Shown here: positions 5,636 through 34,177 of the stretch, in pieces | How the letters are laid out: each line of letters begins with the position of its first letter | Numbering within the stretch: position 1 is the stretch's first letter | Source of the DNA: a virus | Length of the DNA stretch: 34,539 bases | Virus record (IMG/VR): IMGVR_UViG_3300005935_000063 | Coordinates: 1 to 34,539 of that record | Strand: one strand, 5' to 3' | Notes under the pieces: model-generated | Told to the model about the DNA's origin: nothing | The model's input: only the letters and a program-made list of their open reading frames with translations | Database searches by the model: none | Made by a program: the position numbers and the translations under genes

Positions 5636-6313
5636 TTATTCTCCTAGGAAGTCACGAGCTGTGACACTTTTGTGAGCGTGAACGCCATCTTTAGTTCCAG
5701 TATGCTGAACATAGGATGGCATAGTACAATACATATTCCAATTCTTACTTTTTGCCAATTTGCTCATAGTATACTCCCAACCACTTTCTTTCTGAATAGG
5801 AAGTATGCAATCTTTCCAGAACATTCTAGTCACCAAGCATCCAAATATCCCTATGGACTGCTTACGCATAGCCCTGACAGTACCTTCTGCATTTAGATTG
5901 ATAGATTGAATAGCTTTGTGACCTTTATAGTTGTATACTGATACTGCTCCTAGGAACTGATCTCTATCAGCCAGAGTATCATATCTTTCTAAAAGTACAC
6001 TAAACCAATCAGGATTAAATACCATGTCAGAATTTAGATTGACAACACCTTCTAGTCCTTCAAAGTTTTCAAACATCCAGCTTATAGAATTACGTGTACG
6101 TTTAGAGCAGTTGGATTTCTCTAGCATCTGCATAGTGAAAGGTATTACAGATTGATTCAATACTTCAGTAACCTTCTCTCTATTGTCAGATCCATCATCA
6201 AATACATATAGGTGATCTGGACGCAATATGCTTTTGTTTAAAGATTTGATAGTACGGTCTAATAGACCAAGCCTATTATGTGTCATCATAATAACTTTGA
6301 ATTTTGGAATCAT
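5636..6313 (-). CDS. GT2-type glycosyltransferase
   Basis: A GT-A fold glycosyltransferase of 225 residues. It opens with the family-2 strand VIMMTHNR (7-14), followed by VFDDGSD (37-43), the usual nucleotide-binding Asp pair, and NSDM (94-97), a variant of the DxD metal motif. It has no membrane helix, so it works in the cytoplasm on a soluble or protein/DNA-bound acceptor. It is the last gene of the glycan block. Its ATG overlaps the upstream stop by four bases. Sugar donor and acceptor cannot be deduced. Confidence 0.8.
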   Translation of the reverse strand: MIPKFKVIMMTHNRLGLLDRTIKSLNKSILRPDHLYVFDDGSDNREKVTEVLNQSVIPFTMQMLEKSNCSKRTRNSISWMFENFEGLEGVVNLNSDMVFNPDWFSVLLERYDTLADRDQFLGAVSVYNYKGHKAIQSINLNAEGTVRAMRKQSIGIFGCLVTRMFWKDCILPIQKESGWEYTMSKLAKSKNWNMYCTMPSYVQHTGTKDGVHAHKSVTARDFLGE

Positions 6314-7140
6314 AACATCCCCAACATATCTTTAATATTTCGTATCACAACAGACACTTGCGGCTGCCAATTACAATCACTTAATACCCTACACTTAGTA
6401 CCTAATGGATTCCAACTACTTTCATACCTATGCTTGTTAGTACCTCTAGCACCTCCCCATCTTCTAGCATCAGTCCAAACTAAATGTTTAGTTCCGCACA
6501 AACTGGCAAAATGCATAGGCCCACTGCTAGGACCAATGACCAACCGAGAGCTACAAACAATATCAGCTAGCCTTTCTAAAGGAACTCCCAACTGCTTATC
6601 AGTATGGGCTACCCAAATAGCATCTTTAGGACTTCCTATTGAAGCCATCTTAAGCTTGCTTTTGAAGTACTCTGTAACAGCTACCCACTTCTGTATAGGC
6701 CAATCTCTATTACCAGTCCTACGCTTGTTGCATTTACGCGCGTGTATTATCAGATCATACTTATCCTTCTTGCAAGGGTTCCCTAACTTGAGAAATGTTT
6801 GGTCTTCCATACTCAAAGCAGTTGTCTCTTTAGTAGGTCTATACCATTCTATCTTATACCCTTTATGTCTATGCTGTATTTCATCCCATTCTCTTTCTGT
6901 AAACCTAGGATCTCCCATTCTTCTAGTCATCCAACATTCGCAGTTCTTGTCATACTTGGATGTTATGATCTCATCAGCAAAATCTTTGAATAGATACTCG
7001 GTGCCAGGAAGTGTAGCAACAATTACCTTATCAAATCTTTCCCTATTATCTACGGCAAATTTACGGCACCTTCCTTGCCACCTCATAATAAGCCAGCCGA
7101 ACTCACCGCACCATGGGCCAATCAGAAGTAATCGTTTCAT
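6310..7140 (-). CDS. GT9-like (heptosyltransferase-type) glycosyltransferase
   Basis: The 276-residue protein looks like a GT-B enzyme of the LPS heptosyltransferase class. The N-terminus has a Rossmann-type start with the Gly-rich GPWCGEFGW. The C-terminal domain contains the family signature around 196-218, CSSRLVIGPSSGPMHFASLC, where GT9 enzymes bind the nucleotide-sugar and have a conserved G-xx-H-A pattern. GT9 members use ADP-heptose or UDP-GlcNAc. No signal or membrane segment is present. It is translationally coupled to both neighbours. Family placement is moderately sure; the donor is unknown. Confidence 0.7.
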   Translation of the reverse strand: MKRLLLIGPWCGEFGWLIMRWQGRCRKFAVDNRERFDKVIVATLPGTEYLFKDFADEIITSKYDKNCECWMTRRMGDPRFTEREWDEIQHRHKGYKIEWYRPTKETTALSMEDQTFLKLGNPCKKDKYDLIIHARKCNKRRTGNRDWPIQKWVAVTEYFKSKLKMASIGSPKDAIWVAHTDKQLGVPLERLADIVCSSRLVIGPSSGPMHFASLCGTKHLVWTDARRWGGARGTNKHRYESSWNPLGTKCRVLSDCNWQPQVSVVIRNIKDMLGML

Positions 7141-8123
7141 CTAAATGTTTCTCCCTTCCTTGCCATATCTATAGAATCTTTGATTTCCCTGGCAGCACGC
7201 TTCTGGTTCAGCTCTTGTAAGTAGTATTCCCTAGGAGCAAACTTATCAAGATTATCTAGTACATATTCTACAGCTGACCAGAAGTTCTCTTTAGATGCTA
7301 TTATGCCAGTCTTCTCATTTATGTACTTGTCTTCCCAAAATCTTACACTATCCAATACTACTATAGGTAGATTACAAGCTAACATCTCAGGTATAACTCT
7401 AGGACAGCTATCTACGGAAGCGTTTGAGCACACTATACCACACTTGCACTTAGAGTACTCCTTAGCTATATCTTTTCTTAGAACACGGTGAGAAACCACA
7501 TTTGACGGCTTCTTACAGGGTGATCCGTTACCTAAGTTAAGGACGTTAAGCCTAGAGGGCACTGTAGAGTACACAAACTCATGCCCTTTTATTTTATATT
7601 GACTTCCATTAGCAGGGAAACATATATGGTAAGACTTCTCTCTGTCATAAGGAACCATAATGTTATCTGGAGCAGGCTTAATGAAAAGACTCATAGGTAT
7701 ATCTGGATATACAGATTTGCACTTCCTAATCTGAGGCACAGAGTCTTGTATTATTAGATTGTAATTTGTAAAGCCTTTCTGAGGCATATATCTTTTGCCT
7801 GCTCCATAGTAAATCTTAAAAGCATCAGGAAAGCGTTTCAAAATTTTATGGTACTCTGAGAATCCTCCTCTACAGAATATAACATCTGGAGTAAAGTTTA
7901 AAGTCCAGTGTTTAAAATCTGGAACTCTTATCTCTGCAAAGTTACTTGAGAACTCATGATACCGTTCTCCACCCCAATAAGCTACAACTCCTGCATCACT
8001 TGGACCAAGCATAGAGTAGAGGAGTTGAGTCCAAACATCATCACACTCCTCAATAGTGTTGAAGATGGTTTCTTTAGGATCACGGTCTGTAGGATGCTTA
8101 CCTCTTAACATAAGGTAAATCAT
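7137..8123 (-). CDS. GT4-like glycosyltransferase
   Basis: This is a 328-residue GT-B type protein. The second Rossmann domain is the recognisable part: CGIVCSNASVDSCPRVIPEM (228-247) and CNLPIVVLDS, the stretch where GT4 enzymes bind the nucleotide diphosphate with the E-x7-E pattern. It is followed by KTGIIAS, another common GT4 feature. The N-terminal domain is divergent. It overlaps both neighbours by four bases. It is cytoplasmic; donor and linkage are not predictable. Confidence 0.7.
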   Translation of the reverse strand: MIYLMLRGKHPTDRDPKETIFNTIEECDDVWTQLLYSMLGPSDAGVVAYWGGERYHEFSSNFAEIRVPDFKHWTLNFTPDVIFCRGGFSEYHKILKRFPDAFKIYYGAGKRYMPQKGFTNYNLIIQDSVPQIRKCKSVYPDIPMSLFIKPAPDNIMVPYDREKSYHICFPANGSQYKIKGHEFVYSTVPSRLNVLNLGNGSPCKKPSNVVSHRVLRKDIAKEYSKCKCGIVCSNASVDSCPRVIPEMLACNLPIVVLDSVRFWEDKYINEKTGIIASKENFWSAVEYVLDNLDKFAPREYYLQELNQKRAAREIKDSIDMARKGETFR

Positions 8124-8863
8124 GCATAGCCCCTTATTTTAGATTCAACAATAGCAATATCTTCCGGTACATCTACTGCATGCGAGTCAGTTTTAACAGG
8201 AAGCATATATACTTTGTAGCCATTTTCTAAAGCTCTCAACATGCAGATATCTTCTGTATTTTCTAAATATCCTTTTTTGCACTTCCTGAATAGATGAATT
8301 AAAGCACCTCTTTTAAATACATATATGCATACTTGCTTTAGAGGGCTATCATGCAAGTTATCCTTGCTATATGGTATAACAGATCTACTCATATATAATA
8401 GTTCATTAAACTTATTGACAACTGTATGTATACAATTAGGAGAACCAAAATCATCTTCTTCTGTTACATTAGTATAGCAGTTGAGTATCCTATAATCCTT
8501 GCTAATTTTTTCGAACATATTGATAGCATACTCTATAAGTTCTGAGCCAAGCAAAGGTTCATCACCTTGTACATTAACTACAATCTCCTCTGGTATCTTT
8601 AGAGCAGCTTCTGCTACAGCCTCATTACCAGTAGTATTATCTGGAGAAGTTGTAACAGGTTTAACCCCTCTATTTGCCCAAAATCTATTTACATGATCAA
8701 ATATCTCTGAGTCAGGGGTAGCTACATATACACTAACATCATCAACTCTAACACAATTATCTAAAACCATATCAATCATAAACTTACCATCTATAATAGC
8801 AAATGGTTTACTAGGGAATCTCTTGCTATCAAGTTGAGCAGGAATTACTATTGCAGTCTTCAT
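8120..8863 (-). CDS. KdsB-like CMP-sugar synthetase (cytidylyltransferase)
   Basis: At 247 residues the protein has the length and motifs of 3-deoxy-manno-octulosonate cytidylyltransferase: IPAQLDSKRFPSKPF (7-21, IPARxxSxRxPxKPL in the family), VNVQGDEPL (97-104), CIYVFKRGAL (179-188), LENTEDICMLRALENG (200-215) and VDVPEDI (230-236). Such enzymes join CTP to KDO or a similar 2-keto-3-deoxy acid to give a CMP-sugar donor. The His usually before GIYxYR is Gln here (KQVCIYVF), so the substrate may differ from KDO. Its neighbours, a 2-hydroxyacid dehydrogenase and an HpaI aldolase, could make or edit that acid. Confidence 0.8.
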   Translation of the reverse strand: MKTAIVIPAQLDSKRFPSKPFAIIDGKFMIDMVLDNCVRVDDVSVYVATPDSEIFDHVNRFWANRGVKPVTTSPDNTTGNEAVAEAALKIPEEIVVNVQGDEPLLGSELIEYAINMFEKISKDYRILNCYTNVTEEDDFGSPNCIHTVVNKFNELLYMSRSVIPYSKDNLHDSPLKQVCIYVFKRGALIHLFRKCKKGYLENTEDICMLRALENGYKVYMLPVKTDSHAVDVPEDIAIVESKIRGYA

Positions 8864-9822
8864 TATACTACCCTGTGGTTATAAGGTTGGCTTGTAATAA
8901 AATTGACAGCTTCAATAGCTGCTCCAAGTTCCATATCTCTCCTACTCTGTACTGTACAAGATCCTAGGTGAGGAGTAAGGTATGCATTACCCATATTTGC
9001 TAACTGTTCTCTATACGGTTCCTTATCAAATGTATCAATTGCTACAGTTGCTTTAGGACGTTCTTGAAGCCAAGTATAAAGATCACGCTCATTAATGATA
9101 CCTCCTCTAGATAGATTTAGCAATCTAACATTATCCTTCATCATATCAAGATCAGTAAGATTTATGTAATCATGGTTATCAAACTTATCATCCTTAAGAG
9201 GAATATGAATAGAAATAACATCGCAATTCTTTAGCATCCATTCTTTACTCTTATTGCACCAGAACTGAGGTAATTCCGCTATTGCTTGGTGATCTATATC
9301 ATTAACATACAAAGAACATCCAAAAGCAGATAACTTCTTATACAATAGCTTACCAATTCTACCATAACCAATTATGCCAACTTTGCAATTCTTAAGCTCT
9401 CTACCAATATATCTATTCCAAGTATATTGCTTCATATCTCCACTTACATTCTCAACCTTACGTAGCATATTAAGTATTTGGCAGACAGTAAGTTCTGCTA
9501 CAGCATTAGAAGGAGCATTAGGTGTGTAAGTGACTACAATTCCTCTCTTTCTGCATTCATCAAGATCAACAGAGTCTAAGCCAATACCTACTCTAGATAT
9601 CATCTTCAAGTTAGGGACTAGATCAAGAATCTCTGCAGTATACTTCTCAGTACCTGCTATGATAACATCAGGCTGCTCATCTTTTAATACTTGAATATGT
9701 TCCTCTTTGCTGTACTTAGTTCCTACCCTGTTAAGTTCAAAATTTACGCCATACTCTATTAAGTAGTCTAGTGGAGCTTTGTTAGTATGGCCAAATGGAC
9801 TAGTTGTAATAATTGTCTTCAT
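8863..9822 (-). CDS. D-isomer 2-hydroxyacid dehydrogenase (SerA-like)
   Basis: The protein is 319 residues. An NAD-binding Rossmann motif GYGRIG is at 152-157, followed by VNDID, whose Asp fits a preference for NAD. The catalytic residues of the family are all present: Arg239 in LSRGG, Glu268 in DTFDKEP, and His285 in TPHLGS. The N-terminal domain holds SRVGIGLDSVDL, typical of phosphoglycerate dehydrogenase. It interconverts a 2-hydroxy and a 2-keto acid. Lying between a CMP-sugar synthetase and an aldolase, it likely serves synthesis of an unusual sugar acid rather than serine. The start overlaps the aldolase stop by four bases. Confidence 0.85.
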   Translation of the reverse strand: MKTIITTSPFGHTNKAPLDYLIEYGVNFELNRVGTKYSKEEHIQVLKDEQPDVIIAGTEKYTAEILDLVPNLKMISRVGIGLDSVDLDECRKRGIVVTYTPNAPSNAVAELTVCQILNMLRKVENVSGDMKQYTWNRYIGRELKNCKVGIIGYGRIGKLLYKKLSAFGCSLYVNDIDHQAIAELPQFWCNKSKEWMLKNCDVISIHIPLKDDKFDNHDYINLTDLDMMKDNVRLLNLSRGGIINERDLYTWLQERPKATVAIDTFDKEPYREQLANMGNAYLTPHLGSCTVQSRRDMELGAAIEAVNFITSQPYNHRVV

Positions 9823-10514
9823 GATATCATATTCTCCATAAGCTTTATCTGTTCAAATAACATAGTAGTATCCATACCCATAGCAACCATACCATACTTC
9901 CTACATCTGATACAGTACTCATCCCAATCCTTTACTAGGTGATAGCCTTTCTTTTCATCTGGTATACATTCTTCAAATATTGTTAATGCAGCTTTCACAG
10001 CTCTATGTTCAAAGTCTCCTGCAACACCATATGACTTAGATAGATCATATGGGCCTATCATATAGTAGTCTACTAATTTGTTCCAATTACTTTTAGATAT
10101 GTATGGTAACTGATCAATAGCCTTACGGCTTTCTATTTGTATAATGATAATAGGAGCAGCTATACCTAATGCCTTATGGCCCCACATATTCTCTCTTACC
10201 AAACCTAGCCCTCTAGATGGATAATTACAGATGCTATGTATTTTAGTAATTTGATCAACTGATTCTATATTGGCAAAAATAATACCAGTTGCTCCTGCAT
10301 CCAAACACATCCTGACTTTTTCTTCATCAACCGTAGCAACTCTGACAAAGGCTCTCCTATCACGCCTACTAATAACTTGTATACAGCTATACAAAGTTTC
10401 ATTATTAAAGCACCCGTGCTCTGCATCTAACACTACGCCATCAAAGCTACTGTATGATAAGATCTCAGATACTAGAGGGGAAGGAATTTGTTGCCACAAT
10501 AACCTTAGAGACAT
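9819..10514 (-). CDS. HpcH/HpaI-family class II aldolase
   Basis: The 231-residue protein shows the family residues in order: the general-base His in LDAEHG (His33), the substrate-binding Arg in FVRV (Arg58), LDAGATGIIFANIES (71-85), the metal ligand Glu128 in IQIES, and the second metal ligand Asp157 in IGPYDLS. These metal-dependent enzymes join or split pyruvate and an aldehyde through 2-keto-4-hydroxy acids. In this context it may build a 2-keto-3-deoxy acid that the adjacent KdsB-like enzyme activates. A macrophomate-synthase-like or citrate-lyase-like activity cannot be excluded. Confidence 0.8.
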   Translation of the reverse strand: MSLRLLWQQIPSPLVSEILSYSSFDGVVLDAEHGCFNNETLYSCIQVISRRDRRAFVRVATVDEEKVRMCLDAGATGIIFANIESVDQITKIHSICNYPSRGLGLVRENMWGHKALGIAAPIIIIQIESRKAIDQLPYISKSNWNKLVDYYMIGPYDLSKSYGVAGDFEHRAVKAALTIFEECIPDEKKGYHLVKDWDEYCIRCRKYGMVAMGMDTTMLFEQIKLMENMIS

Positions 10515-11161
10515 AGAATGCTCCCATCATAAAATTTTGAGTAGATAGTTGGAGTTATAATTTTGAACTTTATGCCAGCTTCATCTATATTCCTTAATAC
10601 TCTATAAATGAAATGGTCTTTCTTCTTTTCCCATTCCATATCATCGCTATCAGTAAATCCTTCTCCATAACAATGCTGAGTGCCTTCTTGAGGCTTAGAG
10701 TATCCATCTGCACCTATTACATAGATGTTCCTAGCTCCCATAAGATGAGCTATCATTATTGCCAAGTTACCGCCTATACGGAAGAATCCTTTGATGACTC
10801 CATCCTTGTATTCTATAGGCTCATTCTTATTATGGAAGTCATCAGTATATGGAACAATTGCCCTATCATTATCCTTATCAGAAACACATCCTAAAGTCTC
10901 TCTGAATAAGTGACTACCTAGTAACAATGTTGATTTAGGTTGGATACATTTATGGAATCTCTTCAGCCTCTTGTTGTTGACCCATAAGTGATAATCTGGT
11001 ACGTGCACATGTGTCATACGGTTAATCCCTATAGTGATTGGATTAGCCTTCTTCATCCATTCCTTGATCTCCTTATCATATAACCGTACTGAATTAGCAG
11101 CTCCATAGATTAGGAAGTCTCTCTTGCCTTTGTACTTATCAATTAAAGCTTTGAACCCCAT
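10505..11161 (-). CDS. DUF115 / GT42-like Rossmann protein
   Basis: In this 218-residue protein the N-terminus has a nucleotide-binding-like strand-loop, FLIYGAANSVRLYDK (16-30), then ITIGINR and PDYHLWVNN. The C-terminal half has GGNLAIMIAHLMG followed by ARNIYVIGADGY (130-154). This two-part pattern is shared by DUF115 (motility accessory factor, MptE-like) proteins and by bacterial sialyltransferases of GT42. Those GT42 enzymes use CMP-sugars, so this gene is the best candidate in the cluster to use a CMP donor from the KdsB-like enzyme. That link is inference. Confidence 0.55.
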   Translation of the reverse strand: MGFKALIDKYKGKRDFLIYGAANSVRLYDKEIKEWMKKANPITIGINRMTHVHVPDYHLWVNNKRLKRFHKCIQPKSTLLLGSHLFRETLGCVSDKDNDRAIVPYTDDFHNKNEPIEYKDGVIKGFFRIGGNLAIMIAHLMGARNIYVIGADGYSKPQEGTQHCYGEGFTDSDDMEWEKKKDHFIYRVLRNIDEAGIKFKIITPTIYSKFYDGSILCL

Positions 11162-12027
11162 TATACTAGTCCTTTTGTATATAGCATTATTCTATTTTTC
11201 CATAAATTATGTTTAGGATCATTAATACCTTTCAGCCTACCCTTGTGTTTATGAGAAGCAAACAATACTCCTTTGTGATGCCATTCAGCCATATCAGCAG
11301 CAGTACTTTTATGAGTCTCTCTATTGTACATAGCTAGGAATTGTTCTTTTTGTTCAGGAGTTTCATAAGGTAAGTGCTCTTCAGATCTAGGTACGCAGCG
11401 TAATGTATAACTTGTTAAATTTTTGTGGTAAGCTATGGCAGGTAATTTCCACCCTATATCATATGCAAATTTAGATCTAAGCAGCTTGTTATAAATATAT
11501 GAATCTTGTAGATTACTGATGCGTCCATATCCAGTTACATCTCTACCCTTATTTATTACTTTTTTGGCTGTAAAATCTAACTCTGCTCCTTTTTCCTTTA
11601 AAGTTTCTGAATTGTAACAGAATAGTCTAGTTGATGGGAAATCTCTATACCTTGTTCTATCTGGAGGAAAATCTATACCAAATAAATCATATTCAGTTAA
11701 TATACTTATAATTTCTTGGCCCCAATTAGGGTAAGTTAATACTACATCAGCATCAACTATAATTACATACTTACTTTTTAAGTGTTTAAGAGATTTATGT
11801 AGAAGTGAAGCATGCTTCATTGAAGGAGAATCTTCTATCTCAGGAATCTCATATTGGCAAATTTTGGTCCAAGGTTTAGAAGGTACACTATCATCAAATG
11901 TTGCACACAACCAATTTACACTTTCAGGATTTTTTAAATACTTGCTACTAATTTGATATAAGAAATCAACATACTCCATAGTATTAGCATCAGCATACGT
12001 CACCAAATCTATAAGTGGTTCACACAT
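11161..12027 (-). CDS. GT-A glycosyltransferase, paralogue of the 19166 gene
   Basis: A 288-residue GT-A type protein with a clear DxD in YVIIVDADVV (88-96), for binding a metal-nucleotide-sugar complex. The C-terminus AEWHHKGVLFASHKHKG and HNLWKNRIMLYT is closely matched by the gene at 19166 (CEWHYKGKIFGTHK, HWKNRIDLYT), as is DIGWKLP versus DTGWRIP. The two are paralogues within the same operon and likely add different sugars or act on different sites. No membrane helix is present. The start lies one base after the methyltransferase stop. Confidence 0.7.
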   Translation of the reverse strand: MCEPLIDLVTYADANTMEYVDFLYQISSKYLKNPESVNWLCATFDDSVPSKPWTKICQYEIPEIEDSPSMKHASLLHKSLKHLKSKYVIIVDADVVLTYPNWGQEIISILTEYDLFGIDFPPDRTRYRDFPSTRLFCYNSETLKEKGAELDFTAKKVINKGRDVTGYGRISNLQDSYIYNKLLRSKFAYDIGWKLPAIAYHKNLTSYTLRCVPRSEEHLPYETPEQKEQFLAMYNRETHKSTAADMAEWHHKGVLFASHKHKGRLKGINDPKHNLWKNRIMLYTKGLV

Positions 12028-12028
12028 A

Positions 12029-12676
12029 CTATTTCCTCCTAGCTATGAAAGCCCACCATTTAGGGTAATTTACCCTTCTCCTATTCCCAACCCATTCAGA
12101 TGCTACTATATCTAAATATTCACCATATCTATGTTCTATACTTTCCATTAATGGGTAACTTCTTATATGACCACACCCTAGAAAGGTAGGGATAGTAATT
12201 GCCAACCATTTAGATGTAGGTATTGATTTGATAAACTCTATATCCCAATTAATATGTTCAAGTGTTTCTGTAGAAATTACAATATCATATTTTGATATTA
12301 CAGAAGTAGGGAGATCCTTAAATGATTCTCCATTCACTATAAGATTAGTTGAGGAATCTTTAGGCTTTGTAATATGATGGTGAGCACTTGAGAATTCATA
12401 AGCGCAATATTCTTTTGGCTCAAATGCTTTTATGAATTTATATGCAATACCACCAAATCCAGCTCCAACATCTAATGCACTATCAACAGGACCAATATTA
12501 TCTTGGATAAGTTTTATCAGAACATCTTCATACCGTTTCTCCCATACATCACTATAATGTTGAGAATCATACTCCCTATCAGGGAATTCATTTGATATGT
12601 ATAGATCGCCTTCCTTGTGTAATAATCCAAGACAAACTTCATTGTCCAAATGCTTGATCCATTTTTTACTCATCAT
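12029..12676 (-). CDS. class I SAM-dependent methyltransferase
   Basis: In this 215-residue protein motif I of the SAM fold is ALDVGAGFGG (67-76). Later strands YDIVISTETLEHI match the motif-IV region of small-molecule methyltransferases. It lacks the DNA-methylase (DPPY/NPPY) and rRNA-type motifs, so an O- or N-methyl group on a sugar is more likely. It sits between glycosyltransferase and sulfotransferase genes. GGAGG lies seven bases before the ATG, which overlaps the upstream stop by four bases (ATGA). A second ATG follows at once and could also serve. Confidence 0.75.
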   Translation of the reverse strand: MMSKKWIKHLDNEVCLGLLHKEGDLYISNEFPDREYDSQHYSDVWEKRYEDVLIKLIQDNIGPVDSALDVGAGFGGIAYKFIKAFEPKEYCAYEFSSAHHHITKPKDSSTNLIVNGESFKDLPTSVISKYDIVISTETLEHINWDIEFIKSIPTSKWLAITIPTFLGCGHIRSYPLMESIEHRYGEYLDIVASEWVGNRRRVNYPKWWAFIARRK

Positions 12677-13458: not shown

Positions 13459-13919
13459 TATATTAAGCTCCAATCGCAGAACTCTATAGGGCACTCTACA
13501 CCCAACGCTATACAACAAGCTATCCTATGATGACCTTCCCATATCTCATGGTTTTCATGGCCAGGAATAGGAACCAATGGCCGTATCAATACAATAGGAG
13601 GCTCTTGAATATGCTCCATTAGTATATCGCCATAGAGGATACGGAACTTGGCGATTTTCTCTTCAATCCATTTATGCTTCCTACCGTAGAGCTTGAGCAT
13701 CTTGTAGTATGGTCCTGCAAACTTATCCTTTACAATCTTTATATGAGGAGAGTTTATCATTTCCATAGGGCGCTTGGCATTCGGTGTTGTACATGATAGA
13801 TATGATTTATACCTATCTGGATTATGTTGAGCATGAATCATAGCCAAGTCAGAAGGCTCTACATCTCGCTCATAAAGAACTTCCAGCTTCACTTTTTTAC
13901 ACATTTTGCTAAAGTTCAT
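13458..13919 (-). CDS. ParB/sulfiredoxin-like protein
   Basis: In this 153-residue protein the C-terminus IWEGHHRIACCIALGVECPI (127-146) matches the ParB-N/sulfiredoxin motif xxGHHRxxAxxxxGxxxxP, which in relatives binds a nucleotide phosphate or CTP. The first 100 residues are helical and basic. In ParB-like enzymes this motif supports CTPase, nuclease or kinase activity. Lying between two sulfotransferases, it could have a nucleotide-related role such as kinase in donor synthesis. That is speculation; only the motif is seen. It overlaps both neighbours. Confidence 0.55.
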   Translation of the reverse strand: MNFSKMCKKVKLEVLYERDVEPSDLAMIHAQHNPDRYKSYLSCTTPNAKRPMEMINSPHIKIVKDKFAGPYYKMLKLYGRKHKWIEEKIAKFRILYGDILMEHIQEPPIVLIRPLVPIPGHENHEIWEGHHRIACCIALGVECPIEFCDWSLI

Positions 13920-16524: not shown

Positions 16525-16527
16525 TCT

Positions 16528-17106: not shown

Positions 17107-17109
17107 TAC

Positions 17110-17847: not shown

Positions 17848-18532
17848 CGCCTCCGAAAAGTATTTCAGATCTGTACTCTGATATTTCATCAACAGTAGTT
17901 GGTTTGATATATAGCTTTGCAATATCTTTGATTATTTGTTTTAGCTTACTTGGATCTTTTACAAGGTGATAATGTATTGAAACAAATAATGGTACTTGAG
18001 TTTTCTGTATATAATCTGCCATTGTTGGTAGAACAACTTCCTCTGCTCCTTCAATATCCATCTTAATCAAACTACAATCTTGGATATTATTTGATTCTAC
18101 AAATTTATCAAAAGTAGTGAAATTAGCAAGCCAACCTTTACTACCATCAGTTATTACTTTGGCCATACCATCTCCACAACGCTTCCTATTTTTCATTTCC
18201 ATTCTACTCTCTATATCATACAATCCTTTATGGTATAGGTTGATATTCCTAATATCATTCAATCTAATATTTGCTATTGCTTCCGCATAAGCTATGTGAT
18301 CTGGCTCTAATGCATAACAGAATTTAGATTTCCTACTCCCATATAGTATAGTTGGACCAATCCATGTACCTATATCAATATATGTATGATCTTCATCTAG
18401 AAACTTATCTAGTATATTGAAAGTTTGTGGCTCCCATTTTCCAGCATTAACTAATTCCCAAAAGCTTTCAACTTTTGGTATTATTGCAGTATCATTAACA
18501 ACAAATGATTCCTCATTAATATTAATTTCCAT
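17834..18532 (-). CDS. FkbM-family methyltransferase
   Basis: In this 232-residue protein motif I reads YIDIGTWIGPTIL (51-63), a family form of E/DxGxxxG. ALEPDH holds the ribose-binding Glu (76). SLIKMDIEGAEEVVLP (154-169) is the full FkbM signature. It is the second FkbM gene in the cluster and more canonical than that at 15913. It should O-methylate a sugar hydroxyl. Its end overlaps the downstream GT2 gene by 14 bases and its start overlaps the upstream DUF616 stop by 11 bases. Confidence 0.85.
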   Translation of the reverse strand: MEININEESFVVNDTAIIPKVESFWELVNAGKWEPQTFNILDKFLDEDHTYIDIGTWIGPTILYGSRKSKFCYALEPDHIAYAEAIANIRLNDIRNINLYHKGLYDIESRMEMKNRKRCGDGMAKVITDGSKGWLANFTTFDKFVESNNIQDCSLIKMDIEGAEEVVLPTMADYIQKTQVPLFVSIHYHLVKDPSKLKQIIKDIAKLYIKPTTVDEISEYRSEILFGGDESA

Positions 18533-19169
18533 TTTCCACCAACTTTCTTATTTTATGACGACTGCGAGGGAACATTCCATTCCTAATTTTGTTTTCCAGT
18601 AACATAATATTTTCAGAATACTTAGTTTTCCACATAGCATAAGGACAGCACACTTGATCTCTTTTACATCCTGCTATATAACATCTCCACCATAATTCTT
18701 CAAAAGCTATCAAATCAGGATCATTATGCTTTCTAATTATTGTGCCACAATCCATTAAGCCAATATTATCAGGAAAGCCATCATCTCTATATTTAACATA
18801 ATGATCTAATATTTTATATGTAGCTCTTTTTTGGTCAATACATACTAATGATTCTTCATATATATTATTTCTTTTTGCGTGTTTGAAAAATATCGCAGTC
18901 TTATCGCTCTGCTCTAATTGCTTACAAAGTTCAAGTAATTTTTCTGGCTGCATTAATTTTTGGTTAGCATCCACCCAAACACTAAGATCATAATCTTGAA
19001 AAAATAAATGAGGAAACATTTTGTAATATTTAGTTAATTCAAAAGGACCATAATTACTTATCTTTGGATCCAAATCAGTTATGATATCAAAATCTATCCC
19101 ATATGGTAAGTGATATTTTGGGAAATTATCATATCCATCAAAAAGAGTTGTATATAAGATTATCTTCAT
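18522..19169 (-). CDS. DUF616-type glycosyltransferase (second copy)
   Basis: The 215 residues match the DUF616 layout of the 15261 gene: ILYTTLFDGYD, DIITDLDP, KYYKMFPHLFFQDYDLSVWVD with the acidic metal-binding site, KHAKRNNIYEES, DDGFPDNIGLMDCGTIIRK and a Trp-rich WWRCYIAGCKRDQ. The two proteins are paralogues but well diverged, so the duplication is old or the two came in separately. It is cytoplasmic. ATGA coupling to the upstream glycosyltransferase supports the start. Confidence 0.75.
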   Translation of the reverse strand: MKIILYTTLFDGYDNFPKYHLPYGIDFDIITDLDPKISNYGPFELTKYYKMFPHLFFQDYDLSVWVDANQKLMQPEKLLELCKQLEQSDKTAIFFKHAKRNNIYEESLVCIDQKRATYKILDHYVKYRDDGFPDNIGLMDCGTIIRKHNDPDLIAFEELWWRCYIAGCKRDQVCCPYAMWKTKYSENIMLLENKIRNGMFPRSRHKIRKLVENGN

Positions 19170-19987
19170 AGTGTTATCCCAAATTCCTTCTGAGTATATA
19201 AATCAATTCTGTTCTTCCAGTGTCTTCCATAGAAGCTACTTAGAGGATGGGATCTACTAGCTTGCTTATGAGTTCCAAATATCTTTCCTTTATAATGCCA
19301 CTCGCACATATGCTCTGGTTTCTTTACGCAGTGAAACCTTTGTGTATCATTAGCCCAAGGTAGCTGCTTCTTTTCACTACGGGATAATACACACTCCATA
19401 TGACGCCCATCACCTTTTAATATTACTGGTATTCTCCATCCAGTATCGCACTTAACTCTACCACCTATTCGGCTTTGCCGCCAATCTGCTTCTCTTTTTG
19501 TACGTATGTGATATTTCTTAACACTCTCTCTCTTAGGGAATACGTTGGGACGGAAGTCAAGCTTTATATTTTTGAGCAACTCTCTCTTGAAACAGAACAT
19601 GAAGATGGATGGGAACTTCTCTCTACAACGGTTGAACCCATAGCAACCTATTCCTGTATCTAATTCAGTTGCTATTACATCATCCCATCCTTTATATAAT
19701 AAACAGATATCTGCATCTATAAGAATAACATATTCAGATGTTACCTTTGTCAAAGCATAGTTGACAGCAATAGAGTGATTATAAGATGAACACATATGTT
19801 CATGAGGGATAGTCCCTAAGTCTTCAAAACCAGCAGGACATATTGTGTTAGCCTTATCACCAGACATAACGGCTTTATAATGTATGTTATGTTCATTACT
19901 CTTGAACGTCTCTGCTGATTTCCTGAGCAAATGTATATACTCATTAGAACCAGCTGCAGAGAATGTAATAAAATCTATATCAGACAT
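19166..19987 (-). CDS. GT-A glycosyltransferase, paralogue of the 11161 gene
   Basis: The ATG at 19987 is preferred; the frame can only be extended by a TTG at 20008, deeper in the upstream gene. AAGG precedes the ATG by a few bases. In the 273-residue product the DxD lies in YVILIDADICL (86-96). The C-terminal CEWHYKGKIFGTHK and HWKNRIDLYT segments and DTGWRIP are shared with the gene at 11161, defining a local paralogue pair. The middle is Arg-rich (READWRQSRIGGR). Donor and acceptor are unknown. Confidence 0.7.
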   Translation of the reverse strand: MSDIDFITFSAAGSNEYIHLLRKSAETFKSNEHNIHYKAVMSGDKANTICPAGFEDLGTIPHEHMCSSYNHSIAVNYALTKVTSEYVILIDADICLLYKGWDDVIATELDTGIGCYGFNRCREKFPSIFMFCFKRELLKNIKLDFRPNVFPKRESVKKYHIRTKREADWRQSRIGGRVKCDTGWRIPVILKGDGRHMECVLSRSEKKQLPWANDTQRFHCVKKPEHMCEWHYKGKIFGTHKQASRSHPLSSFYGRHWKNRIDLYTQKEFGITL

Positions 19988-21407
19988 CACAGCCTTCTTC
20001 ACCAGCAAGTATTGTAGGAGAGTAAACCGGATTCACAGGTTGATCAGATATAGACTTCTTCTGCCAAGTTGTAAAAGCTGCTTTTCTTTCAGGCCTACAT
20101 AAATCAGTAGAATCCATCCACTCCCTACCAATATCTCTAACAATCCTACTATTGCCATCTGTAGGATATGCTAGAACTCTTGTACCAGGATTGACCTTCT
20201 TCCTTTTGAAAGGAATATCCTTAAGGCCAAACTCATCTCCTCTACAATGTATCTGATTCTCAGGATTACGGTTAGGGTCTAGCTTACCTGCAATTAATTT
20301 ATAGAACCTCTCGTGCAGTATGGCGGGACTCGTAACGCAAGAGGGGTATACGTACCCGTAAGCCCGTAACACAACTTGATACAAGGTTGGTACTTGCACA
20401 AATACATCTAGAAGCTCCGCTATATGGATAGGCTGCACTAATATCCAATCATCCTCAAGATTTAGTATGTATTCATCAGTAGCTTGGTCCCAAGCCCAAT
20501 TAAATGCTTCAGAGTAACTAGATTTCCTAGGATAGTTTGCTACAACATTACCAAAGAATTTATTACACACCTTGGCAACTTTTCTTCTATCGCCTTCTGG
20601 TATAGGATCAATATTAATAAACAAAGTAGACTTTTGCCAATCTACACCTTTTAGGTTTTTAACAAAAGATGCAAAGGTCCTCTCTACAAGGGCTGGCCTC
20701 ATAGTAGCAGTAGTTGTAACCTGGATAGGAATTGATTCAAAGTCTTTGTACTTAACGTCTATATCGTAAGCTAGGAGTAGTGATAAGTTTGGAGCATCAA
20801 ACTGAGGCACTTCATAACGCTTGGCTTTCTTCTTTAAGAAAAATGCCAACTTATCGCTACAAACTAAATCAGTCTTAGTAGTATATTCTTGAACATATTC
20901 ATCATAGAACTCTCCAGTCTCCATAAACTTTTGAATAAGGTCTACAGTCTTAGGGGTTTCAGACTCACACAGAAAATTTAAATCCTCTATGACATAGTAT
21001 CCTCTTACTTTAATTGAAGGATACATTTTAGTAAGAGTGAATTGCTGATCTTCCGGTCTATGAGATCCATCATCTATTATGATATCAAATTCTGGACATT
21101 CTTTCAATATTGAATCTAATACTGCTTCATCAGCTTGAGAACCTCTAATGAATTTAAATCTTTTGTCTTTGATACCTAATGCTTTTGGCTTAAGATCTAA
21201 AATATCCAGACCATATATGGTAGCATTAGGAAAGTAATCAAGCCACATCTTAATAGAAGCTCCATCAGCAACGCCTATCTCTAATATCTTGATCTTATCA
21301 TTTCTCATACGTGCAAATATAGAGTCATAAGATCTGGTATAGTAATGCTTCATAGGGCCTTTATCAGTTCCGTGTTTTTTTGCCAATTTAGTTAATGATA
21401 TGCTCAT
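19980..21407 (-). CDS. methyltransferase-glycosyltransferase fusion, 475 aa
   Basis: Two enzymes are joined. Residues 1-200 are a SAM methyltransferase: LTKLAKKHGTDKG, ILEIGVADGASIKMW (motif I), YGLDI, IIDDGSHRPEDQQF, a pattern common in macrolide and cephalosporin-type methyltransferases. Residues about 225-475 are a GT2-like domain starting VTTTATMRPALVERTF with NLEDDWIL as the metal site; this half is paralogous to the 23812 gene. A start at 21407 gives the ATGA overlap with AGGAGA about eight bases upstream; a second ATG lies six bases earlier. The fusion suggests that sugar transfer and methylation act on the same product. Confidence 0.75.
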   Translation of the reverse strand: MSISLTKLAKKHGTDKGPMKHYYTRSYDSIFARMRNDKIKILEIGVADGASIKMWLDYFPNATIYGLDILDLKPKALGIKDKRFKFIRGSQADEAVLDSILKECPEFDIIIDDGSHRPEDQQFTLTKMYPSIKVRGYYVIEDLNFLCESETPKTVDLIQKFMETGEFYDEYVQEYTTKTDLVCSDKLAFFLKKKAKRYEVPQFDAPNLSLLLAYDIDVKYKDFESIPIQVTTTATMRPALVERTFASFVKNLKGVDWQKSTLFINIDPIPEGDRRKVAKVCNKFFGNVVANYPRKSSYSEAFNWAWDQATDEYILNLEDDWILVQPIHIAELLDVFVQVPTLYQVVLRAYGYVYPSCVTSPAILHERFYKLIAGKLDPNRNPENQIHCRGDEFGLKDIPFKRKKVNPGTRVLAYPTDGNSRIVRDIGREWMDSTDLCRPERKAAFTTWQKKSISDQPVNPVYSPTILAGEEGCDV

Positions 21408-22066
21408 GACCATTCTCCTAATATTGATAGATAGTTTCCGTTCCGATGAAAGTCTATTCCATCAGCTACAAGTTTTTGTTCATACTCAGACCAAGATATA
21501 AGATTCTTACCTTTATGTTCATTAGATGTACAAATAACTGCGTCGTGTATTATGCCATATTTATTGATAAGAGCAATAAGCTGAGTAAGATTAAATTCTG
21601 AAGAATAATATTTTTTGGCCTCTCTATATTTTGCTTTTAAAGTTCCTGTCTTCATCCTCCATTTAAACATAGTAAAGTAGAAACTTTTTGATATGCGAGC
21701 TAATTCTTTTATGGTCTTCTTTATATTTGGAGAATGTTCAAGCACGCTGCAGCAGTATACCATGTCAAAACTATTTGTACCAAATCCTGTATCAATCATA
21801 TCTCCAACATGTGTTTTAAATCCTTTTAATTTAGCATGCTTTAAAAATGTCTCAGATACATCCATAATCTGATAATCTATATCAGGTCTTTTCCTAGTAA
21901 TAAGTTGAGCTTCATGAGCTTCTCCGGCACCTATCTCAAGTACTGTCTTTGCAGAATTGTTAGCCATATAGTTTACATAAAGCTCTTTACTGAAATGGTT
22001 CTTCCTTGATTCTATCCAAGGTACTTTCCCTATCTTATATTTGTTCCATTTATTTTTATATTCCAT
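21404..22066 (-). CDS. class I SAM-dependent methyltransferase
   Basis: In this 220-residue protein motif I reads TVLEIGAGEAHEA (41-53). The acidic ribose ligand is in QIMDVSE. FDMVYCCSVLEHSPNI (around 100-115) is the post-II strand typical of Methyltransf_11-type small-molecule enzymes, and SFYFTMFKWRMK follows. No nucleic-acid methylase motif is seen. Its stop overlaps the next gene by four bases. Sugar methylation is the likely role by context, with the site unknown. Confidence 0.75.
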   Translation of the reverse strand: MEYKNKWNKYKIGKVPWIESRKNHFSKELYVNYMANNSAKTVLEIGAGEAHEAQLITRKRPDIDYQIMDVSETFLKHAKLKGFKTHVGDMIDTGFGTNSFDMVYCCSVLEHSPNIKKTIKELARISKSFYFTMFKWRMKTGTLKAKYREAKKYYSSEFNLTQLIALINKYGIIHDAVICTSNEHKGKNLISWSEYEQKLVADGIDFHRNGNYLSILGEWS

Positions 22067-22067
22067 A

Positions 22068-22880
22068 CTATGCTCCTAACAGGTTTTCTTTCTTACCAGA
22101 TATTCTAGTCCTACCTGTTTGTTTAAGATGTTTAATGTATACTCCCTTCCCAACCTTCTTACCTAAAGAATCTTCCAATCTATTATAAAATCTTGAGTTG
22201 AACATAAATACCATCCATTCACTACAAGTAAATGATATTGAATCCTTTGATCTTAAATTAGGAGAGGTTTTCAACCTATGAGCTATTAGTGATGATAAGA
22301 ATACTTGATCAGTCCAGCATCTAAGGTTTGTTCGGAAATGTCTTTTGTGAGCAGGGCGTTTTGGATCTTCAAGAGTTTTCCATATCTCATCATACTCTGG
22401 TATTGAATCACTCTTACCGAGCAAGCAAGTATCATAAGCAAACTTAAGAATATCAATAGACCTAGTTGTGTTCTTCGCAAAGATAACTCCTCCATTAGCA
22501 TAGGCTCTACTACAGCCTATATCAATCATATCATTCCTAGCAGTAATACCTATGTCAAACTTCCATCTTGAAACAGAAGGGTTCCAATCCTTAACAAAGA
22601 ATGTATCAGCATCTACAAAAGTTATAAGTTCATCAGGATTATCTAAATCAATCTGATCTTGCATACAAGAAAACTTCATAGTTTGCATTTTAGTATCAAA
22701 GTCTTCTTGGTTGACTTGGATATACTCTATGCTATGATCTTCCAATATTTTTATCTGTTCAGGAGTAAGATCTGGGCCATACATAAAGAACTTAGCCTTG
22801 ACTTTATTCCTAGTTGAAATAAAATACTTGGCATACTGAAAGTAGTTGGCACTACATAAAGTAACTACCTTATGCATCAT
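22068..22880 (-). CDS. GT8-like glycosyltransferase
   Basis: In this 270-residue protein the start VVTLCSANYFQYAKYF fits the GT8/GT77-type opening. DELITFVDADTFFVKDW (83-99) contains the D-x-D metal-binding site in the usual F-x-D-x-D-T-F form. A later ANGGVIFAKNT (128-138) is the acceptor-loop motif NGGV/NSGV of the same families. It is soluble and basic at the C-terminus. The ATGA coupling to the upstream gene supports the start. GT8 enzymes mostly transfer Gal or Glc from UDP-sugars; the donor here is not proven. Confidence 0.75.
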   Translation of the reverse strand: MMHKVVTLCSANYFQYAKYFISTRNKVKAKFFMYGPDLTPEQIKILEDHSIEYIQVNQEDFDTKMQTMKFSCMQDQIDLDNPDELITFVDADTFFVKDWNPSVSRWKFDIGITARNDMIDIGCSRAYANGGVIFAKNTTRSIDILKFAYDTCLLGKSDSIPEYDEIWKTLEDPKRPAHKRHFRTNLRCWTDQVFLSSLIAHRLKTSPNLRSKDSISFTCSEWMVFMFNSRFYNRLEDSLGKKVGKGVYIKHLKQTGRTRISGKKENLLGA

Positions 22881-23821
22881 TTAACTCCTAGATGATTCTT
22901 TATATTCTGCCATGATACTTGTAGGCTATAATTCTTTGCAGCAAATTCACGACACATATCTGCTTTATCCTCAGACCAATTCTTAAGAGCATACTCTGCT
23001 TTAGCTATCAAATGTTTCTTCTTACAAGTGAAAGTATTGACACCTTCATAGAAATATGCTTGATTGATAGGAGCGCTGATATTATAGATAGTAGGTAATC
23101 CGCACATAGTCATTTCTAAGAATGTCTGAGGGAATCCTTCAGCCGGATGCTCTGTGAATAGGATACCAATCTTTCCTAAAGGTATACTTAGTGCAACGAA
23201 TTCCATACTGCCAAAATTAGTAAGATCTACATTATGGTGAGTTTCTTTAATTCTGTTTTTATGAGCAGTTCCACCTACCCAAAGAACGCTTCTTTTCCCC
23301 TTGACTTTATCAGTAAGTTCATTAATAAAGTGGGCTTCATTCTTATCGCCTCTTTTGCCAACAAGCATATAATCATAAGGTTTGTATATACTTTCAGTAT
23401 CGCCTTGATCCCACCAATAATCCTTATCCTTGCCTTTTATGTGTATTTTAGCATTACCTCTTAATCTTGCAGGAGTATCTACTAACGAAACATCTGCTAC
23501 ATTATTATACATATTCCTATTGCAGCAAGAATAGTAAACAGTCTTGTTAGGGATAGCTTTCAGTATCACATCCTTCTTAGGATCATGTTTAACAGACCAA
23601 ACTATTGCTTCAGGGTGTTTCTTACAAAAATCTATTACCTGTTGAGCATCTGTCATACTGTATTCCCAATCACACTTAACATCTTGTCTAGATAGATAAA
23701 TAATACATCCAAACATCTTTGCATACTCTCGGTATCCGCAAGTACACTTGCCATCTATCATCATCTGCTGTTTACCATTACGTTCCTTAGATAGACCTCC
23801 ATACAGCATTATCAGCTCCAT
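22877..23821 (-). CDS. GT4-like glycosyltransferase
   Basis: This 314-residue GT-B type protein has a divergent Cys-rich N-terminal domain (DGKCTCGYREY, YYSCCNRNMYNN). The C-terminal domain has SVLWVGGTAHKN, then FTEHPAEGFPQTFLEMTMCG and LPTIYN (223-247), the E-x7-E-type donor-binding stretch of GT4 enzymes. It has no membrane helix. The Met5 codon is a second possible start, but the first ATG gives the usual overlap with the upstream gene. The donor is unknown. Confidence 0.7.
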   Translation of the reverse strand: MELIMLYGGLSKERNGKQQMMIDGKCTCGYREYAKMFGCIIYLSRQDVKCDWEYSMTDAQQVIDFCKKHPEAIVWSVKHDPKKDVILKAIPNKTVYYSCCNRNMYNNVADVSLVDTPARLRGNAKIHIKGKDKDYWWDQGDTESIYKPYDYMLVGKRGDKNEAHFINELTDKVKGKRSVLWVGGTAHKNRIKETHHNVDLTNFGSMEFVALSIPLGKIGILFTEHPAEGFPQTFLEMTMCGLPTIYNISAPINQAYFYEGVNTFTCKKKHLIAKAEYALKNWSEDKADMCREFAAKNYSLQVSWQNIKNHLGVK

Positions 23822-24471
23822 GTAATGCTCCTATCCTTATTCTTATTCCATTTTGTCAGACCTCTAGCAGCTCTCCAATCCCTACCATTATCCTTACAGA
23901 ATGGACCACCAGGCCAATCTGTTCTCTCACTAGCCATAGGGAGAAGGTTGTCAATCAAAGTATTCACAGATCCTCTCCTAAGTTGTTTCTCAGGATCTTT
24001 ATCTGTAATCATTTCATCTGAAAGTTCCCTTACTAAGTCACCTCTCCACAAAGAAGGCTGTAGGGCTACCTTATCAAGCTTTGCAGCGTGTTCTTTAGGG
24101 AATCTTATGTATCTAATTTGTGAACTTATGGAACCTAGAATTTGATCAAGATCAATCTTTCTAGTGAATAGCCAATCATCCTCTAAATGGAACACCCATC
24201 TTGATTCACTATTCTCCCATATTTTCTTAACTGCTTTAGCAAAGTTTGGTTCGTCGCTAGTAGTATACTTCCTAACTGTAAAGTGGTCCCAAGCTATACC
24301 TAAACACTTAGCAGCAATATTTGCAGCTTCTTTAAGTTTTGCTTTAGGTGCAAAGTCTACATTTAGGATTATTTGAAATCCATCTGAATAATTAACATTC
24401 TTCTTAAAACTTGTTAATGTTTGAGCTAATAGTTCTGGTCTTAGTGTTGCAGGAATGGTAATGTCAATCAA
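23812..24471 (-). CDS. GT2-like glycosyltransferase, paralogous to the fusion's C-half
   Basis: In this 219-residue protein ITIPATLRPELLAQTLTSFK (4-23) and WVFHLEDDWLF (92-102) correspond to ATMRPALVERTFASF and ILNLEDDWIL in the C-terminal half of the 19980 fusion. The ends also match (GRDWRAARGLTKWN versus GREWMDSTD). EDD is the likely metal-binding site. It lacks a methyltransferase domain, so the fusion is probably the derived form, or this copy lost the other half. It is cytoplasmic. Confidence 0.7.
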   Translation of the reverse strand: MIDITIPATLRPELLAQTLTSFKKNVNYSDGFQIILNVDFAPKAKLKEAANIAAKCLGIAWDHFTVRKYTTSDEPNFAKAVKKIWENSESRWVFHLEDDWLFTRKIDLDQILGSISSQIRYIRFPKEHAAKLDKVALQPSLWRGDLVRELSDEMITDKDPEKQLRRGSVNTLIDNLLPMASERTDWPGGPFCKDNGRDWRAARGLTKWNKNKDRSITWS

Positions 24472-25417
24472 CTTTGTCCTCCAAAATTTTAATGAATTTT
24501 TTCATGTTTTTCTCTCTGCTGCCAATCTTATGCCTCAGAGTATTATTCATATTAACTAATTTGTTATCAACAAATATCATTCCATTAATTAATTCTGCAG
24601 CTTTAGCAATATTGTGATCATCATAAATATAAGCTGTATCTTCTGTAGCATAGTCTGCCATACCATTCCTAGGATGATCACCACAAACTATCCTAGCTCC
24701 GCAAAGGGAAGCTTCCATAGGAACATTATGCAATCCTTCTAATTCAGTAGGAGCAAACCACACATCGCATTCAGAGTAAAGCTTTGCCAAGTCTACTCTA
24801 TTTGGATTAACAATATATTTGTCTAACCAAGACGGCTGTTTCTTAAGCTTCTTATTCCCAAATGCTACAAACCTATAATTATCCTTCCCTAGTAAATTGT
24901 GTAGTACTTCAAAACTAGGCCAACCCTTGCTTGCAAGCTTACTCCATAAACAGCCTATTGTTATTTTCCTTTCACTTCTTAGATCATAATCTTTCCACCA
25001 ATCAAAGTCTATACCTTGGTAGACTAGATGGCACTTACCGCCAAAACTTTCAATAAATTTCTTCATCCAAATAGAATTTGTTATCTTTGTTACACGGCTA
25101 TTCTTGTAATAACTTATAAGTTTGTCTTCATCCCAACCTGGAACCCAAATTTCATGTCCTCTAATATACCAGAACTTATTTTTGGCATTAGACCTTACTG
25201 TTGGTTTTACAGATTTTATATCTGTAGCAATTAATGCATCTATGTTAGAAGGTATCCTTGGCAAAGTAGTATCATGAGTAAACCAGTTAAACCTATCATT
25301 ATTAGTAATTATATTGCAGTCGTGTCCAAGCTTTTTTATAGTTTGCTGGCAACGGATTACAGTCCTACTACCTCCATTATTCCCTAGACCTCCGCTACAA
25401 TTAAATGCTATCTTCAT
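24464..25417 (-). CDS. GT4 glycosyltransferase
   Basis: A standard GT-B fold in 317 residues. The N-terminal loop SGGLGNNGGSRTV (8-20) is Gly-rich, as in GT4. KITNSIWMKKF and YQGIDFDWW match the linker, TIGCLWSKLASKGW (153-166) begins the second domain, and WFAPTELEGLHNVPMEASLC (220-239) gives the donor-binding E-x7-E region, followed by GARIV. It is the first glycan gene in the transcription order. The ATG is two bases after the zinc-ribbon stop. No transmembrane helix. Confident family call, unknown donor. Confidence 0.8.
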   Translation of the reverse strand: MKIAFNCSGGLGNNGGSRTVIRCQQTIKKLGHDCNIITNNDRFNWFTHDTTLPRIPSNIDALIATDIKSVKPTVRSNAKNKFWYIRGHEIWVPGWDEDKLISYYKNSRVTKITNSIWMKKFIESFGGKCHLVYQGIDFDWWKDYDLRSERKITIGCLWSKLASKGWPSFEVLHNLLGKDNYRFVAFGNKKLKKQPSWLDKYIVNPNRVDLAKLYSECDVWFAPTELEGLHNVPMEASLCGARIVCGDHPRNGMADYATEDTAYIYDDHNIAKAAELINGMIFVDNKLVNMNNTLRHKIGSREKNMKKFIKILEDKVD

Positions 25418-34100: not shown

Positions 34101-34177
34101 TGATGGTAATTTAATGGTATATTTATTCACTCACCCGCACTTAATTCGATAACCTGAAAGTATTTTTGGAGAAAATC

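Follow-up and report, generated by a model that had tools for sequence, protein, structure and literature searches.

Known Viral Glycosylation Systems

Descriptions of phage glycosylation have so far mostly involved a single enzyme or a few, with DNA, O-antigen or, more recently, capsids as the target. Mycobacteriophages of cluster O carry one O-methyltransferase gene and three glycosyltransferase genes between portal and protease (PMC4351075), and these glycosylation genes are said, in a passage of PMC11600133 citing Freeman et al. (2023), to modify the capsid and tail tube. Pelagimyophage glycosyltransferase clusters have been interpreted as modifiers of host lipopolysaccharide (PMC7029224), while chloroviruses and mimiviruses encode most enzymes of their own particle glycan, as in PBCV-1 (A064R/A061L) and the Moumouvirus australiensis cluster (PMC9614988). 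The locus considered here lies on a 34.5-kb virus fragment, IMG/VR record IMGVR_UViG_3300005935_000063, whose full 34,539 nucleotides are referred to below as the window. It is a 20-kb island encoding families of glycosyltransferases, methyltransferases, sulfotransferases and enzymes of a cytidine monophosphate (CMP)-sugar branch; its gene order is conserved, it has been transferred between unrelated phages, and in several of them it sits within the head operon. It is rather probable that this is a mobile virion-glycosylation island. Its products would work in the cytoplasm and decorate virion proteins with an O-methylated glycan that includes a CMP-activated keto-sugar and is probably sulfated.

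The closest described arrangement is that of cluster O (Corndog type), where methyltransferase and glycosyltransferase genes lie in the head operon between portal and protease/capsid, as they do in three of the island-bearing phages described below (G11, G14, and G15). The cluster O set differs in size (four genes against 26) and, comparing the gene sets by description, has no reported sulfotransferases, keto-sugar branch or ParB-like gene; the window's own island, moreover, is on the other strand than the head genes. The methyltransferase half of a fusion protein encoded by the island matches mycobacteriophage methyltransferases encoded beside glycosyltransferases (30–35% identity). Giant viruses share with the island glycosyltransferase-methyltransferase fusions and O-methyl caps, and one 12-gene cluster includes two sulfate-metabolism genes (PMC9614988); these are, however, viruses of eukaryotes, and the likeness drawn here is one of enzyme types. 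Among tailed phages, cyanophage and pelagiphage clusters resemble the island in having long glycosyltransferase runs with some methyltransferases, but the cyanophage clusters encode epimerases or other sugar-building enzymes, unlike the island. In cyanophage S-SCSM1 roughly 16 sugar genes follow one another, and S-SCSM2R carries a KdsB gene. An earlier interpretation of the window made without database searches (the sequence-only reading) held that phages are known for carrying single glycosyltransferases, a premise that S-SCSM1 and the four-gene set of cluster O render outdated. What the island would probably add is a much enlarged form of virion glycosylation that includes sulfotransferases and a keto-sugar branch and can move between unrelated phages.

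Organization of the Island

Open reading frame (ORF) calling gave 26 successive minus-strand ORFs from 25417 down to 5636, spaced by at most 3 bases (a 3-base gap in two cases). Most junctions are overlaps, the 4-base ATGA overlap being the commonest type. This agrees with the layout given in the sequence-only reading, and profile searches bore out much of its inventory as well: six methyltransferase domains were counted by Pfam, the CMP-sugar branch was identified as a KdsB-like enzyme (CTP_transf_3), a 2-hydroxyacid dehydrogenase and an HpcH/HpaI aldolase, and of three proposed sulfotransferase-like proteins two (ST1 and ST3) passed the Pfam cut-off and the third was recognized by its predicted fold. 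The estimate of about 13 glycosyltransferase domains is less sharp, since the count is 13 without and 14 with an MptE-like gene and several of these are weak by profile. The minus-strand run exceeds the island, extending upstream into a zinc-ribbon-like gene and a 5'-3' exonuclease and downstream into a C92 amidase and small genes. From 27.0 kb on, the plus strand carries the terminase and portal genes, together with one for a probable protease/scaffold and the 5' part of the major capsid gene.

An assembly chimera or error, or a chance arrangement, was rejected, as the same sequence recurs in two other contigs, over 12.9 and 24.8 kb with full or 99.996% identity, and both cross the junction between island and head genes. 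The set is cotranscribable, but scans for transcription signals were uninformative as to the single transcript proposed in the sequence-only reading: promoter-like matches were at chance level (103 against 91.6 ± 9.5) and terminator-like matches were fewer than chance (4 against 7.7). No tRNAs or Rfam families were found in the window.

Conservation of the Island in Related and Unrelated Phages

The sequence-only reading suggested searching phage genomes for the same gene set in the same order, and such sets were found in five other phages. Two belong to the window's own lineage and come from an Ace Lake (Antarctica) co-assembly (PMC8542988): G3, a 105-kb relative with the same island at ~70% DNA identity, and G5, a more distant relative in which the island shows 30–60% protein identity and different cargo. 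Scans with island proteins recovered three more, G11 (38.6 kb), G14 (57.9 kb), and G15 (61.0 kb). Collinearity with the window extends over 20 families in G3 (tau 1.0), 16 in G5 (0.98), 17 in G11 (0.81) and 15 in G14 (0.89), and in none of these four was it matched by any of 20,000 shuffles; the G15 island, compared gene by gene by blastp only, is likewise collinear. Twelve families common to the window and the islands of G3, G5, G11, and G14 constitute the core. The terminase, portal and capsid proteins of G11, G14, and G15 belong to other families (phrog_2, phrog_145, and phrog_212, against phrog_9 and phrog_12 in the window lineage), with no blastp similarity to those of the window lineage detectable, and in all three phages the island stands just after the portal gene and just before minor-head-like, scaffold-like and major capsid genes. 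Collinearity in five other phages, three of them with unrelated head genes, indicates that the block moves and is kept as a unit.

Island genes common to the window and G3 are under purifying selection, with dN/dS ratios (nonsynonymous to synonymous substitution) of about 0.12–0.36 where dS is unsaturated, compared with 0.05–0.13 for head genes. Content nevertheless turns over: seven window island genes were not found in G3, and in G5 an aldo/keto reductase and a second-type cytidylyltransferase stand in place of the aldolase/KdsB branch, together with two radical SAM genes, one B12-binding and one SPASM (L022, 6489–9850); the cargo of G5 also includes another sulfotransferase. In the island-free relatives G10, L032/G13, L033, and L035, the slot beside the exonuclease holds, on the same strand, only a methyltransferase gene and a homolog of the third sulfotransferase-like gene (ST-like1), and in L031, also island-free, a methyltransferase gene and a patatin gene. 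The large island thus occupies what is usually a small slot.

Outside these islands, tblastn against 50,697 phage records gave no match for the window's GT4c, the G15 copy of GT4b, ST1 or MT24. The GT9-like gene was found at 41 IMG/VR loci, in large phages (contigs reach 349 kb) that mostly lack the island (for example, L091); as these loci added just one island, that of L108/G15, to those already known, GT9 was rejected as an island marker. A 115-kb phage, L123, has two ST-like1 copies (12004–12711 and 16331–17017) near a GT9-like gene. G14 (L075–L077) carries many pentapeptide-repeat genes with a common N-terminus, scattered, and some of them inside the island.

Sulfotransferases and a Probable CMP-Keto-Sugar Branch

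The AlphaFold model of ST-like1 (pLDDT confidence 70.7) found its best Foldseek matches in tyrosylprotein sulfotransferase and cytosolic SULTs (E 3e-5, TM about 0.4), so that this protein is predicted to be sulfotransferase-like, with a fold closest to that of sulfotransferases using 3'-phosphoadenosine-5'-phosphosulfate (PAPS). No match to adenosine-5'-phosphosulfate (APS) kinase was found, and sulfate would therefore come from host PAPS.

The KdsB-like enzyme matches KdsB in the PDB (1.4e-27), exceeds the cut-off of NCBIfam NF003952 and retains the VNVQGDEP motif, while the aldolase matches HpaI aldolase in the PDB (1.4e-16) and retains the QIE and GPYDLS motifs. A keto-sugar branch is suggested because the pyruvate aldolase adjoins the KdsB-like enzyme. 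In G14 and G15 the aldolase slot beside KdsB is filled by an unrelated HMGL-like aldolase, and a bacterial plasmid from Acuticoccus carries the same three enzyme types side by side (aldolase, cytidylyltransferase and a phosphoglycerate dehydrogenase-like protein), next to polysaccharide genes; both the swap and the plasmid trio support the logic of the branch, although on the plasmid a HAD hydrolase comes next, unlike in the island. The pathway for 3-deoxy-D-manno-octulosonic acid (Kdo) likewise uses a KdsB-type cytidylyltransferase, whereas the island places an HpcH or HMGL aldolase beside KdsB; neither KdsA nor KdsC is among the 26 annotated island genes, the flanking genomes not having been searched specifically for them. 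A fold search with the MptE-like protein was dropped as its model was too weak (pLDDT 58.7), and PDB profile searches with MptE-like, ParB-like and GT9 alignments returned nothing usable.

The sequence-only reading took the block to be a single dedicated pathway. Collinearity of the set in five other phages supports this, but the pathway is incomplete: APS kinase was not found, nor was synthesis of nucleoside diphosphate (NDP)-sugars seen in the island beyond the CMP branch, and donors must therefore come from the host.

Proposed Pathway and Alternative Explanations

In the window lineage a two-domain GT4+GT2 protein is encoded after the major capsid gene at 16 of the 17 loci recovered with this protein, island-free relatives included, the exception being a 371-kb phage with a partial match. 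In G3 it comprises 815 aa (PF00534, 5.8e-21); in the window's phage it starts just outside the window, after an HNH/NUMOD-like insert seen in the near-identical contigs. This homing-type insert occupies 13654–14517 of L004, where it separates the major capsid gene from that of the capsid-linked glycosyltransferase. Together with the position of the island in unrelated phages, the capsid-linked glycosyltransferase makes the virion the likely target, and a Ser-rich repeat protein of G3, encoded at the start of the tail-gene region and containing 63% Ser/Thr over its richest 60 aa, is a plausible candidate acceptor.

During infection, soluble island enzymes would assemble the glycan stepwise in the cytoplasm, directly on a capsid, tail or fiber protein. 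The first sugars could be added by the capsid-linked two-domain protein or by an island glycosyltransferase, and about 13 glycosyltransferases would then extend and branch the chain. The aldolase, acting on pyruvate and an aldehyde sugar, would work with the KdsB-like enzyme to supply a CMP-activated keto-sugar for transfer by the MptE/Maf-like protein; hydroxyl groups would be capped by methyltransferases, and the sulfotransferases would draw their sulfate from host PAPS. We infer the order of these steps, the acceptor, the sulfation and the identity of the keto-sugar, as well as the purpose of the coat, which might be a shield, a receptor-binding layer or an anti-defense layer. There is about an even chance that the island is self-contained and passed as a unit between unrelated lineages, plugging into the head operon, and that it specifies a long methylated, sulfated glycan whose CMP-activated keto-sugar comes from a swappable aldolase.

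Several points weigh against virion glycosylation. The glycan, its acceptor and the expression of the island are predictions from the genes, and many glycosyltransferase assignments are sub-threshold. G3 is the only phage in which the Ser-rich protein was seen, and the window's island lies on the strand opposite the head genes, beside the exonuclease, a position that does not itself point to the virion. Furthermore, glycosyltransferases that act on host lipopolysaccharide can be soluble too, and all contigs are fragments, so that genes for lipid-carrier enzymes could lie elsewhere.

The last two points bear on the main rival, in which the island would alter the O-antigen, capsule or S-layer glycan of the host cell surface during infection and thereby exclude other phages or stop progeny from re-adsorbing to debris. 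Pelagimyophage clusters have been so interpreted (PMC7029224), the KdsB-like and GT9-like enzymes are reminiscent of lipopolysaccharide core synthesis, and the slot following the island holds envelope-type hydrolases. Against it, a simple hydropathy test detected no membrane segment in any of the 26 island proteins, and six phage contigs yielded no initiating phosphoglycosyltransferase (Bac_transf, PF02397), WecA-type (PF00953) or Wzx-type flippase (PF01943) protein, the controls having matched. This absence lowers, though it does not abolish, the likelihood of a lipid-linked route, and remodeling of the host surface also sits poorly with an island within the head operon of unrelated phages and a glycosyltransferase tied to the capsid gene; we regard it as unlikely, though it deserves serious attention.

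Other readings have much less in their favor. Flagellin glycosylation islands typically combine FkbM methyltransferases with soluble glycosyltransferases, and by analogy the product of the block might be a free glycan or one attached to a host protein of flagellin-like or S-layer type, but repeated insertion between portal and capsid genes would then be unexplained and the chance of this is slim. Marginally slimmer is the chance that phage DNA is hypermodified with an oligosaccharide as protection from restriction or CRISPR. DNA decoration is a known role of phage glycosyltransferases, and the capsid-linked protein has a weak match to T4 beta-glucosyltransferase (PF09198, 0.0048); yet the same six contigs, including those of 105 kb and 90 kb, contain no thymidylate-synthase-type hydroxymethylase (PF00303; control matched), G3 carries only ThyX among thymidylate synthases, decoration with sulfate, methyl groups and a keto-sugar would be unusual on DNA, and the head-operon position is again left unexplained. 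A passive pile-up of unrelated sugar genes could account for the turnover of content, with seven window genes not found in G3 and the KdsB branch replaced in G5, but it is strongly disfavored, and scarcely credible, in view of purifying selection and of the twelve core families whose order persists in unrelated phages.

A 12-family core, conserved in islands of some 16–26 genes that unrelated phages carry among their head genes, suggests that some phages bear a glycan coat equal in complexity to bacterial surface polysaccharides. Such a coat would bear on the evasion by virions of host receptors, defenses, grazers and antibodies, and the island is a source of soluble glycosyltransferases, methyltransferases and sulfotransferases. 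If virion glycosylation is its true function, the island would give bacteriophages an equivalent of the autonomous glycosylation described in giant viruses.

Genes of the Island and Its Flanks

Only four glycosyltransferase genes (those at 5636, 15261, 18522, and 24464) pass the Pfam cut-off; most other glycosyltransferase assignments are sub-threshold profile matches backed by conservation, and two genes have no profile match, 23812–24471 being assigned as a homolog of the fused GT2 domain and 17110–17922 by motif only (Table 1). TTG starts were called mechanically at 13518, 17922, and 20008, where downstream ATG starts are more probable. GT4c, present in every island seen, has homologs in G3, G5, G11, G14, G15, and L011. 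The two domains of the fusion protein are separate genes in G5 (17507–18124 and 18121–18825), while FkbMa and TOD1a are fused in one gene in G14. The ParB/Srx-like protein weakly matches the ADP-dependent serine kinase SerK (E 0.0036) and is a possible kinase. ST-like1 is retained by relatives without the island.

Table 1. Genes of the island, from first to last, and of its flanks, with profile matches and conservation.
Feature	Position in window	Strand	Match	Remarks
GT4c, GT-B glycosyltransferase, family 4-like	24464–25417	-	PF13692 5.6e-8	First gene of island
GT2d, GT-A-like glycosyltransferase	23812–24471	-	No Pfam match	Homologous to GT2 domain of fusion protein; in all islands
GT4b, GT-B glycosyltransferase	22877–23821	-	PF00534 2e-5	41–69% identity in relatives
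NTt, nucleotide-diphospho-sugar transferase-like glycosyltransferase	22068–22880	-	PF03407 0.017	In all islands
MT11, S-adenosylmethionine methyltransferase	21404–22066	-	PF08241 2.8e-12	In G3, G5, G15
Fusion, N-terminal methyltransferase and C-terminal GT2 glycosyltransferase	19980–21413	-	PF13578 0.0011; PF00535 0.001	
GT2c, GT2-like glycosyltransferase	19166–20008 (probable start 19987)	-	PF00535 0.0099	In all islands
TOD1b, TOD1/MUCI70-like glycosyltransferase	18522–19169	-	PF04765 2e-8	Accessory
FkbMb, FkbM-type methyltransferase	17834–18532	-	PF05050 1.4e-6	Accessory
Unassigned protein, glycosyltransferase-like by motif only	17110–17922 (probable start near 17844)	-	No Pfam or NCBIfam match	
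MT24, methyltransferase	16528–17106	-	PF13578 2.4e-13	Core; in all islands
FkbMa, FkbM-type methyltransferase	15913–16524	-	PF05050 8.6e-12	
TOD1a, TOD1/MUCI70-like glycosyltransferase	15261–15932	-	PF04765 7.4e-16	Core; in all islands
ST3, PAPS sulfotransferase	14632–15264	-	PF13469 1.1e-9	
ST1, PAPS sulfotransferase	13916–14635	-	PF00685 2.3e-15	Motifs YPKCGRTW and RHPLDVFVSSYF
ParB/Srx-like small protein	13458–13919	-		Core; invariant EGH-R motif; in all islands
ST-like1, third sulfotransferase-like P-loop protein	12673–13458	-	No Pfam match	AlphaFold model and Foldseek
MT12, methyltransferase	12029–12676	-	PF08242 1e-5, below cut-off	Accessory
GT2b, GT2-like glycosyltransferase	11161–12027	-	PF13712 0.0021	Paralog of GT2c; ~30% to G5 homolog of GT2c
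MptE/Maf-like protein, candidate CMP-keto-sugar transferase	10505–11161	-	PF01973 0.018, sub-threshold	Core; in all islands
HpcH/HpaI-type pyruvate aldolase	9819–10514	-	PF03328 2.1e-17	
D-2-hydroxyacid dehydrogenase, phosphoglycerate dehydrogenase-like	8863–9822	-	PF02826 6e-38	Kept in G3, G5, G11, G12
KdsB-like CMP-keto-sugar synthetase	8120–8863	-	PF02348 2.8e-32	
GT4a, GT-B glycosyltransferase	7137–8123	-	PF00534 2.1e-4	Core; in all islands
GT9, heptosyltransferase-like glycosyltransferase	6310–7140	-	PF01075 0.018	Core
GT2a, GT2 glycosyltransferase	5636–6313	-	PF00535 2.1e-8	Last gene of island
C92 amidase-like gene	5083–5634	-	PF05708 1.1e-6	Downstream boundary
Zinc-ribbon-like gene, 104 aa	25420–25734	-		Upstream boundary, 2 bases before island; kept also in island-free relatives
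5'-3' exonuclease	25793–26716	-	PF02739 6.3e-16	Probable start region of transcription unit
Major capsid protein, 5' part	34166–34537	+	phrog_1623	

Additional Observations

Neither of two approaches to the host gave a result: the tRNA-Leu(TAA) of G3 had no exact 36-base match in the genome collection, and the 2-hydroxyacid dehydrogenase had no relative in a scan of bacterial genomes. The tRNA gene (L016, 12025–12106) lies between ThyX and an FAD/NAD-type oxidoreductase gene whose ORF, as called, overlaps it; the same two genes are adjacent in G10. The slot following the island contains interchangeable envelope-type hydrolase genes (C92 amidase, patatin, class 3 lipase) in the window, L031, L035, and L013, the patatin and lipase being recognized as PF01734/PF01764 in L031/L035. 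Among the small genes downstream of the island, one at 4492–4734 on the minus strand is acyl-carrier-protein-like (PF00550, 1.6e-4, above cut-off). A 288-aa open frame on the plus strand (6278–7144), antisense to the GT9-like gene, is probably a shadow ORF because the minus-strand frame is the conserved one. A tandem array at 3293–3417 is built of a 6/12/18-base unit of GCTCCA type and encodes, on the minus strand, a Ser/Trp/Gly/Arg repeat.

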